Below, one piece after another: positions 1-44,331 of a stretch of 64,000 bases of DNA. Source of the stretch: Erythrobacter sp. F6033. GTDB lineage: Bacteria > Pseudomonadota > Alphaproteobacteria > Sphingomonadales > Sphingomonadaceae. Below the pieces are notes generated by a model, which did not search any database, was not told the DNA's origin, and saw nothing but the letters and a program-made list of their open reading frames with translations. The position numbers were made by a program, and so were the translations under genes. Within the stretch, counting starts at the first letter, position 1. Every line of letters starts with the position of its first letter. The stretch covers positions 1-64,000 of the forward strand of contig NZ_JALKAZ010000001.1 in the NCBI RefSeq assembly GCF_023016005.1, written 5' to 3'.

Positions 1-1117
<1,117 letters not shown>

Positions 1118-40845: not shown

Positions 40846-41961
<1,116 letters not shown>

Positions 41962-42145
41962 TTCTATATTCCCCTTTTTATAGGATTGAGGCACTGGCTG
42001 TATCTAACTTCTCGGCAAAAGGGAGGCAAGCAATCAATACACCGAAACTGTTGCAAGAATGCCGCTATAAGGTGCTCAGTGCGGAAAAATTGAAGCAAGA
42101 TTGGTAATTATCGCGAAAATCGCGCCTCAACCGCACGCCTTTGAC

Positions 42146-42556
42146 TCAAGCAGCAGCGAAAATGCCAGCGTTTCGAAGCGCTTGAATCAGGTCTTCGATT
42201 GCCGCCCTTGCTTGATTGTCAATGATTTGACCACCTGAAGGAATGTCTGGAGCAATGGCCTCGACCCAACCCGATCTGAATAACAAGAATCGGTCAGCGG
42301 TACGATCAAAGACTCGCATTCCTTCGTTGGGTTCGAAATAATTCCAACTATCTGCGATCTTGATCGCGATCTTGTTATCTTGTCCCATCCATTCCCCGGT
42401 GCCTTCGGGTGTGATCCTGAAGGTTGCGCCATTTTCGGCGTTTGTCGGTGGTTCGGATAGGCTTGCGTCGACAGCTAGCTGAAGCAACCCATCGATCATC
42501 GCAAAGCTCTGATTGACAAAGAACTCTTTCTGGGCCTGCCCGGAGAGCGTGGCTGT
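42146..42556 (-). pseudogene. DUF2793 protein, 5'-truncated (GTA cluster remnant)
   Basis: The frame contains the DUF2793 pattern from near its usual N-terminus (SGQAQKEFFVNQSFAMIDGL) through GEWMGQDNKIAIKI and EPNEGMRVFDR to a typical C-terminus (ARAAIEDLIQALRNAGIF). The normal first residues are missing: the frame upstream of LSGQAQKE belongs to a terminase gene read in another frame. The ATG at 42616 that would open it lies inside that terminase sequence and is probably accidental. DUF2793 proteins are usually encoded at the distal end of GTA or related prophage tail clusters in alphaproteobacteria, which I recall with moderate confidence. Confidence 0.8.
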
Positions 42557-42995
42557 GTTGAGGGCCTCGAAAAGATTCCGGTTCTGCCGCCGAGAAAATC
42601 TGCGCTTGGGCACCATTGGGCCAACGAAGACGTCTTAGAGAGGCCTCGAAAATGGGTGCACGATCAGGTGGGGAGCAAGCCATGATGCCGCTTTCTCCTT
42701 CGACCATTACGGCTCGCGCTTCAGCCAAAGATGATGACACAAGAGCGACCCTCGCATTGCAATCCGTTTCCGCGATGTTGCGCACCCATTCTGAGCCAGC
42801 CCGTGTCTTCCCAAATCCGCGTCCCGCCATCACAAGCCAAACCCGCCAATCGCCAGCCGGCGGCAGTTGGGCTGGGCGGGCTGTCATACCCCAATGGTAG
42901 TCAAATTCGGCCCGTTCGGTTCCGTTCAGAGCATCGGCAATCCGGGAACGAACCTGTTTCGGCTCACAAGCCAGCCAATCCAATCCTGGTGTCAC
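42541..42995 (-). pseudogene. GTA/phage terminase large subunit, 3'-truncated
   Basis: Beginning at GTG 42995, the frame has the N-terminal part of a Terminase_6-type ATPase: LACEPKQVRSRIADALNGTE, the Walker A AGRGFGKTRAGSEWVRNIAE and the downstream AAEPESFRGPQHSHA. Family members continue with an ATPase Walker B region and a nuclease domain, but here the frame breaks exactly after HSHA and reads into DUF2793 DNA in another frame. About 150 of the usual 400-plus residues remain. The Walker motif and adjacent residues match the GTA type of TerL. The product cannot package DNA. Confidence 0.85.
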
Positions 42996-43468
42996 TTCGA
43001 TTGGCCTGCGCGGTCTTTTTCTTCTTTGACCTTCTGCCTGATGGCTTCGACTTTCCGGTCAATCGAGGCGCGGATCTCTGCCGCGCTGACATTGCGTTGA
43101 TCGGCCTGAGCGCGAACTGCGCTTTCCCTGTGTACGTTCAACAAACGGATTGCATTGGCGAAATCGTATTTGTCGGAATCGTCGGTTTGTTGGTCGCCTT
43201 CCCTAAGCCGGCGCAACACCTCCATTTCCAAATGCACATATCCTTCCCACAGAGCGGCGAGCCACTGACGGGCGAATTCGGGCTCTTCACGGCGAACTTT
43301 GTAGGCGCGGCTGGGATTGATGCCCGCTTTGCTCGCTGACTCGGAAACGTTCGAACTTTCCGCCAGATAATCGAGGAACAGGCCGCGCCAGTGACGGTTT
43401 AACTTCGCACTTTCACCTTCTTTGAGCTGTTTTTTGATCTTTGTACGCTGCCTTCCCTTGGCGGCCAT
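42992..43468 (-). CDS. GTA gp1-like small terminase / DNA-binding protein
   Basis: The 158-residue product starts at ATG 43468, with GGAG 7 bp upstream. It is basic and helical: an N-terminal KGRQRTKIKKQLKEGE, a helix-turn-helix-like segment (ESASKAGINPSRAYKVRREE) and a C-terminal coiled coil (IRASIDRKVEAIRQKVKEEK). Its stop overlaps the terminase start by 4 bp (GTGA). Position and helix-turn-helix match the small terminase (gp1) of alphaproteobacterial gene transfer agents. It looks intact, but its partner is broken. Confidence 0.7.
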   Translation of the reverse strand: MAAKGRQRTKIKKQLKEGESAKLNRHWRGLFLDYLAESSNVSESASKAGINPSRAYKVRREEPEFARQWLAALWEGYVHLEMEVLRRLREGDQQTDDSDKYDFANAIRLLNVHRESAVRAQADQRNVSAAEIRASIDRKVEAIRQKVKEEKDRAGQSK

Positions 43469-43491: not shown

Positions 43492-43524
43492 AAAAAAGGC
43501 AGCACCCCGGACCGGGAGGCTGCC
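43492..43524 (-). terminator. Rho-independent terminator upstream of the GTA remnant
   Basis: GGCAGC (43498-43503) pairs with GCTGCC (43519-43524), with an inner CCCGG/CCGGG pairing and six T on the minus strand. It terminates minus-strand transcription only about 25 bp before the gp1-like start, yet no minus-strand gene lies upstream of it. It may be an attenuator or the end of a short RNA. Confidence 0.8.
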
Positions 43525-43680: not shown

Positions 43681-44331
43681 TTGGCTTGGTTGCGCGCGCT
43701 TTACGATTGGACGATGGACAAGGCCGCGCATCCCAAGGCGGTATGGTGGCTGGCCTTTTTCTCTTTCATAGAATCTAGCTTCTTCCCGATCCCGCCGCAC
43801 CCGCTTCTTGGCCTTATGTGTTTGGCAGAACCGAAAAAGGCGCTCCGATTTGCAGCGGTGGCTACAACAGCTTCGGTCGCGGGCGGCTTGTTCGGATACG
43901 GGATTGGGTACTTTCTTTACGAAGCTGTGGGTGCGTGGATCATCGGCGTATTGGGCCTGACAGAGAGCTTCCCGGTCGCGGCTTGTTATATCCGTGAGCA
44001 AGGCGCGCTTGCCGTGTTTTTCGCCGCTGGCACACCCGTACCGTTCAAATTGATGACGATCACGGCAGGCTTCATCGAAATGAACTTGCTGACCTTCACG
44101 CTGGCCGCCATCGCTGGGCGTGCTCTGATCTTTATGGTCGTGGGGATCCTCTTCCAGCTGTTCGGCGCGCCGATCAAAGCCATAATCGACAAATATCTCG
44201 GCTGGGTCACAACCGCATTCGTCGTGCTAGTGGTCGGCGGATTTGTAGCTTTCACCCAGCTCGCTGGCGGGGATGATGAAGCAGCCTCGGACAATGTTTG
44301 TGATTCTGTTACAGAGGTTCGCGGAAGTTAG
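43681..44331 (+). CDS. YqaA/DedA-family inner membrane protein
   Basis: The 216-residue product starts at TTG 43681 with ALYDWTMDKAAHPKAVWWLA. It has about five membrane helices and the VTT/DedA-like region FIESSFFPIPPHPLLGLM and AGTPVPFKLMTITAGF. Short YqaA-type members of this superfamily are common in alphaproteobacteria and may move lipids across the membrane, by analogy with DedA undecaprenyl-phosphate flippases. The C-terminus ends in a polar acidic tail. Confidence 0.85.
   Translation: MAWLRALYDWTMDKAAHPKAVWWLAFFSFIESSFFPIPPHPLLGLMCLAEPKKALRFAAVATTASVAGGLFGYGIGYFLYEAVGAWIIGVLGLTESFPVAACYIREQGALAVFFAAGTPVPFKLMTITAGFIEMNLLTFTLAAIAGRALIFMVVGILFQLFGAPIKAIIDKYLGWVTTAFVVLVVGGFVAFTQLAGGDDEAASDNVCDSVTEVRGS

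Follow-up and report, generated by a model that had tools for sequence, protein, structure and literature searches.

Why bacteria keep gene transfer agents (GTAs), virus-like DNA-transfer particles whose production kills the producer, is an open question. In RcGTA-type clusters, as they stand intact in relatives of the organism considered here, a small terminase gene is followed by the large terminase gene and, further on, by a gene with DUF2793, which the accessible part of one report assigns to the GTA tail fibre (PMC10883770). The same part of that source describes pseudogenisation or loss of GTAs in several lineages, possibly cheaters, and in a model presented in the accessible text of PMC6209664 GTA-positive populations cannot resist invasion by GTA-negative cells. 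Two Citromicrobium genomes carry complete clusters (PMC3338782), and the Caulobacter cluster is described as having terminators and anti-termination (PMC11150451), both according to the available portions of these papers. In this work, we analyse a GTA locus within 64,000 nucleotides of Erythrobacter sp. F6033 (contig NZ_JALKAZ010000001.1, positions 1 to 64,000; the whole stretch is called the window), which keeps this gene order and differs in that everything from the middle of the large terminase to the start of the DUF2793 gene is gone, at a fixed nucleotide pair. It resembles the lost or pseudogenised "cheater" lineages in the loss itself, of the kind to which the invasion model applies; the difference is that no recurrent exact join is named in the accessible parts of those two sources. 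PMC7947584 makes no mention of truncated, deletion or pseudogen, and no paper on this join is among the literature matches listed, subscription journals being mostly outside the search.

Read directly on the minus strand, an intact gp1-like GTA small terminase gene (42992..43468, 158 aa) overlaps the start of the cut large terminase gene at 42995, which is followed by a piece of the DUF2793 tail-fibre gene. The N-terminal part of the large terminase (42547..42995, minus strand) begins with GTG at 42995, retains GRGFGKT, which we take to be Walker A, and continues in frame to ...GPQHSHA, the cut falling after HSHA and directly before the codons of WCDE, presumably Walker B; the gene reads ...EPESFRGPQHSHA and then leaves its frame into DUF2793 sequence. 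The Ala codon occupies 42548-42546, and with no gap, in the +1 frame relative to the terminase, the C-terminal part of the DUF2793 gene continues from 42544 to a stop at 42146 (42146..42544, minus strand; the reading frame is open back to an ATG at 42616). The crossover lies at 42547/42544, with the junction dinucleotide TC (42545..42546, minus strand), the type of the DUF2793 parent site, in between. We refer to the large-terminase codons SHA just before WCDE as site T and to the place in the DUF2793 gene before codons AGQAQKE as site D. Pfam assigned Terminase_6N to the cut terminase (E 1e-8) and DUF2793 to the tail piece (E 3.7e-19); no family scored above the cut-off on the small terminase, so that its identity rests on position and on homologues, matches being present in 51 of the 61 genomes searched (own included), some away from this locus.

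This reading, together with Pfam, agrees with a preliminary description of the locus, in which an intact small terminase was followed by a terminase joined gap-free and in another frame to DUF2793, both end pieces still reading as good protein and one internal deletion having removed the rest of the terminase through the DUF2793 start. In intact clusters (n=32) 12,231-14,778 bp lie between the same two residues, and the size of the deleted block, 12.2-14.8 kb, is taken from these relatives. The series from the terminases through portal, capsid, tail and host specificity that makes a functional RcGTA-type cluster is lacking at the window locus, and the first and last genes are co-linear and in the orthologous place, as in a remnant. 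That the portal-to-host-specificity genes were lost, as had also been suggested, is upheld for the portal, with no match to PF04860 in the whole genome (G000; 2 contigs, completeness 100), in which the other structural genes were not each searched for; small terminase, terminase N-part and DUF2793 have one match each there.

The preliminary description had regarded the join as a one-off scar of this lineage, a single collapse, and we replace this by a probable recurrent exact excision. The join was found in 34 species-level genomes, the window's included (called scars below); 33 share one nucleotide register and align without a gap, and G132 has a 1-nt indel. Carried by 33 other genomes, 32 of them in the identical register, the join is not a product of chance. 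When the three pieces were searched for in 61 genomes (own included), the terminase and DUF2793 matches overlapped in 9 genomes of the genus, the window's among them, and lay about 13 kb apart in others; the letters of the genus junctions confirm the single register. Other genera of the family contributed 10 further joins, 19 in all, and the gap from terminase residue 150 to DUF2793 residue 1, used as a measure of register, was -14 in 18 of these 19 and -13 in G132. Among the best 80 terminase-N loci of named genomes, covered with 4 kb of flank and counted as intact when the terminase merely reads through, there were 15 scars (all -14), 64 read-through terminases and 1 contig ending at the join. 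Three of the 15 are identical to G015, G017 and G028 over the 598 nt compared, which gives 31 distinct scars; G144 (gap -14), G223 and the metagenome-assembled genome (MAG) G257 make up the 34, the joins of G257 and G223 being shown by their letters. Erythrobacter crassostrea, E. ani, E. rubeus, Qipengyuania aquimaris, Q. algicida, Novosphingobium cyanobacteriorum and Porphyrobacter sp. AAP82 are among the named scars. G223 (L568, about 2985) bears a nested second deletion, which removed the end of the small terminase and most of the terminase part and joined the small terminase to the last ~18 nt of that part, followed by the same T-D join. In an even draw of 199 family genomes at least 12 carry the join (G132 at -13, the rest at -14; tables compared by eye), besides G199, with two contigs abutting at the join, and the nested form of G223; about 100 genomes (by eye) have both genes on one contig, and among these the genes, where not joined, mostly lie 12-20 kb apart. 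In the seven other families of the order, none of the 10 genomes that have the two genes on one contig carries the join.

Scars are scattered over the trees. For the terminase-N tree (124 rows, 6 of 130 having been omitted for other deletions or cut contigs), the result headed INDEPENDENCE is that 31 scars need 28 changes, shuffled labels needing 27.8; well-supported branches, from a bootstrap that had not settled, force at least 20 changes, and no scar group exceeds two genomes. Smaller trees, in which intact means without this join and so includes genomes with other deletions (G018, and in the DUF2793 tree also G019, G027 and G014), gave 16 changes for terminase (60 rows; shuffled mean 16.2, at least 8 forced) and 18 for DUF2793 (63 rows; shuffled mean 16.5, at least 5 forced). 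An rpoB/rpoC species tree with 30 rows, of which 29 belong to the genus, requires 7 changes for its 8 scars (at least 4 forced), or 5 changes when genomes with other losses are not counted. A single scar clade, tried with 19 scar rows against 40, was rejected (p-AU 2.5e-53, a cost of 531 log-likelihood units). The row nearest by flank is a non-scar for 24 of 31 scars, and close scar/intact pairs include G251/G128 (92% over about 600 nt), AAP82/E. oryzae (90%) and G139/G206 (83%). Because the trees separate the scar genomes and set them among relatives that lack the join, separate deletions of one block at identical nucleotides are the most likely origin, and recurrence of the exact join is the strongly supported part of our interpretation. 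It also follows that the 33 genomes with terminase joined to DUF2793, a neighbourhood which the preliminary description had set against a deletion should it prove natural in relatives, do exist, but do not represent the natural gene order.

The two sites show little resemblance to each other. In the register used, T and D of the 32 intact clusters are 23% identical (rank 38 of 51 registers), the run shared at the centre averages 1.56 nt (rank 22 of 51), and T-D pairing is not stronger than in control windows (mean z +0.44); neither a direct repeat nor microhomology marks the end points. In most cases a single G is common to T and D at the join, and none of the 34 joins is in the in-frame register, where the GC(N) present in both sites would be used. 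The junction dinucleotide is flanked on its left by letters that fit T, with C at position 5 in 30 of 33, and on its right by letters that fit D, with G at position 8 in 29 of 33. The dinucleotide itself, in the 33 ungapped junctions, is NT in 18, TC in 13 and TA or CC in 2; NT is the form of the T parent (Ala wobble base plus the T of Trp) and TC that of the D parent, where it ends a Phe or Ile codon. Pro as the DUF2793 codon before GQ/AQ occurs in 0 of 31 scars vs 8 of 40 genomes without the join (p 0.008, kinship ignored), and synonymous entropy at T is somewhat low at L-8, R-7 and P-5, not at G-6.

What has to be explained together is thus observed: a shared register, a scattered tree distribution, no homology between T and D, and a dinucleotide with two states. 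We consider it on balance probable that the join arose many separate times through a site-specific break-and-join process with a 2-base stagger. Such a process would act between T in the large terminase and D in the DUF2793 gene, removing 12.2-14.8 kb and leaving the small terminase, the terminase N-part and the DUF2793 C-part. A 2-nt staggered cut at both sites with mismatched joining would allow replication to resolve the overlap either way, to NT or to TC, and the two-state dinucleotide may be understood as such a mismatched 2-base overlap, for which it is fitting though indirect evidence; one enzyme would cut both sites. In G161 (L102) the terminase is broken within 1-2 nt of site T and continues into another GTA region, a hint that T by itself may be a break site. 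Serine recombinases perform a 2-bp staggered crossover, normally requiring the same central dinucleotide in both sites. Their excision reactions are similar to the present case in directly placed sites, precise loss of a block and a two-state central dinucleotide here, and differ in that T and D lie inside two coding genes, D varies synonymously, the two sites have no common central dinucleotide, and no circle was seen.

Several results weigh against such a process. No enzyme was found for T-D joining, and serine recombinases (PF00239), present in 6 of 6 scar genomes sampled, are also present in 12 of 17 other sampled genomes of the genus; G000 has matches outside the window at G000:C1:486582-487040 and 515451-515906, in frames of 538 and 622 aa, and within the genus, counted by eye, 5 of 6 scar genomes have such a frame longer than 500 aa, as do 2 of 7 intact ones and 6 of 10 with other deletions or no GTA (too few to judge). 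T offers NT and D mostly TC, not an identical central dinucleotide, and D shows free variation at synonymous positions across 40 genomes lacking the join, which is odd for a DNA-binding site. As for an excised circle, D-left precedes the terminase C-part in 0 of 80 viral contigs carrying that part (77 judged by pattern, the other 3 reading FSHA or HQIA), in a collection not made to hold circles. Three scar pairs are adjacent on the terminase-N tree (L227/G015, L172/G000, L179/G017), each pair differing in dinucleotide. Conspecific intact contigs were sought for four scar species, giving 92% amino acid identity or less among the matches listed, and both states were seen in no species. Mismatches near the join belong here as well: in 28 scar-intact pairs, which are not independent since E. 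oryzae L213 serves several scars, we counted 123 over the 30 nt that precede the join and 1219 over the 240 nt beyond position 60, compared with 314 and 3722 in 80 intact-intact pairs (per-base ratio 0.81 vs 0.67, p 0.12). This small excess leaves room for short imported tracts, and in two of 10 pairs (G139, G020) mismatches are more numerous in the 60 nt adjoining the join than just beyond, the others being flat or irregular.

That excess, slight and non-significant as it is, would suit a single origin of the deletion, after which homologous recombination carried the scar allele from species to species in very short conversion tracts; the register would then be identity by descent. Spread of this kind would explain the exact register without any enzyme, the join does lie within well conserved stretches of both genes, and TT and TC are one change apart; we nevertheless hold it unlikely. 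Where a check is possible, host-type letters extend up to 5-15 nt from the join, so the tracts would be too short for ordinary recombination. QFSHA, in G020 and its nearest intact relative L181, and AAQ and PEHSHA, in G061, G215 and G154, are lineage letters near the join that scars share with intact relatives. Moreover, the scars are not clustered by kinship, unlike what transfer between relatives would lead one to expect. Identity over D+3..18 is 0.790 between scars and 0.774 between scar and intact, 74 of 500 label shuffles being as high. Spread of a scar allele together with flanking DNA left no significant sign, no such foreign tract being detected beside the join; shared tracts of roughly 20 nt or less are compatible with the data. 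A chimeric template was looked for with the 88-base G251 junction in 10 genomes without the join, where the T and D halves matched apart (some only as weak chance matches) and no joined copy appeared. No DNA match to the join was found in phages, and phages and plasmids gave DUF2793 protein matches below 60% identity and no carrier of the join.

Other accounts turn on the state of the remnant. Codons ~21-148 of the terminase N-part are stop-free in 31 of 31 scar genomes, and DUF2793 is open to full length in 27 of 31, broken in 3 and cut by the end of the locus in 1. Ratios of nonsynonymous to synonymous changes for terminase-N, calculated for the 20 of 31 scars with a close enough relative, were 225:321 in scar tips vs 268:346 in intact sisters and 589:855 in intact controls; for the small terminase 298:310 vs 340:348 (18 scars) and for DUF2793 148:122 vs 142:136 (7 scars), a second comparison covering 19, 18 and 7 scars for terminase, small terminase and DUF2793. 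Relaxed selection on the remnant was not found, with low power for distant pairs, which means either that the deletions are recent or that constraint on the remnant persists; the three broken DUF2793 genes indicate that some scars are older. Open frames and ratios equal to those of intact lineages are what one would expect if deletions were random and selection retained this one for something it encodes (the cut terminase, the out-of-frame tail or DUF2793 expression), but a selected product would tolerate many neighbouring joins, the scars have, register aside, neither a start codon nor a tail length common to all, and 15 other apparent internal GTA deletions, from all sets, have end points that are all different. 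Because the 15 were placed by matching proteins to a single reference cluster, divergence could account for some of the gaps. G018 (L070), which stands as sister to the window's genome in the rpoB/rpoC tree, has also lost GTA genes by another join, and so has L176; these joins lead from residue 186 or 288 of the portal to residue 39 or 71 of DUF2793. We judge retention by selection decidedly improbable, and give a very small chance to a hot spot of microhomology- or hairpin-mediated deletion, which could draw on the shared G but is opposed by the ranks, pairing values and unused in-frame register given above and by a conserved fold not being seen. One ancient deletion inherited vertically, its three-gene remnant conserved for a new use, would be in keeping with good protein under unrelaxed selection, and is hardly credible in view of close relatives without the join and the rejected clade of 19 scars. 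Scarcely probable, too, are assembly artefacts or mixed cultures, in which mostly intact cells would be accompanied by scars from a minority or from mis-joining. Contigs do break at the join in two genomes: in G199 they end at ..AGCCATGC and start at TTGCCGGCC, abutting at the join, with no other copy of the contig end, and in MAG G257 the terminase-N contig stops at the join and has exactly 141 nt in common with the scar contig, presumably the assembler word size, as at a graph branch, no second continuation of the contig being found. Against an artefact, the join is carried by the one-contig genomes G003 and G020, its frequency is 9 of 38 in isolates and 6 of 42 in MAGs or uncultured genomes (p 0.39; best 80 named loci, labels by eye from titles), host-specific letters stand at each join, and the window's genome lacks a portal match. 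The breaks in G199 and G257 suggest that two forms may coexist there and, with the unrelaxed ratios, that excision is young and may be ongoing; under recurrent site-specific excision the events would be young or still going on.

A gene that we take to be OmpA-like (40846..41994, minus strand) lies downstream of the locus. A similar gene, as judged by eye, stands behind the intact GTA cluster in G023 (reference ORF at +13287) and behind the deleted clusters of G018, L176 and others. The two parts of the protein encoded in the window, beside the GTA locus, are separated by a proline run about 30 residues long. Upstream is a membrane protein gene, presumably DedA-like (43681..44331, plus strand). 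A terminator-like hairpin with a T run (43504..43520, minus strand), 36-52 nt upstream of the small terminase and one of 5 such sites in the stretch vs a shuffle mean of 2.1, is a possible GTA leader terminator; termination at this place, before the cluster, would agree with control by anti-termination of the kind that the available portion of PMC11150451 describes for Caulobacter. Where rpoB and the GTA locus share a contig, in 7 scar genomes and 10 intact ones of the genus, the two are 57-138 kb apart (by hand).

The recurrent join points to an enzyme recognising two coding motifs in different genes. Scar cells would become GTA-negative, unable to build virus-like DNA-transfer particles. We propose only tentatively that Sphingomonadaceae possess a dedicated, synonym-tolerant system which cuts GTAs from the chromosome between two conserved coding motifs and makes GTA-negative cells at high frequency, an active "cheater" switch, with scar lineages turning over fast by dying out or regaining the block. 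The same precise loss is present in 15 of the best 80 named genomes by terminase and in at least 12 of 199 in the even family draw, yet no scar group exceeds two genomes; loss being that frequent and scar groups that small, the birth rate and the fate of GTA loss become measurable.
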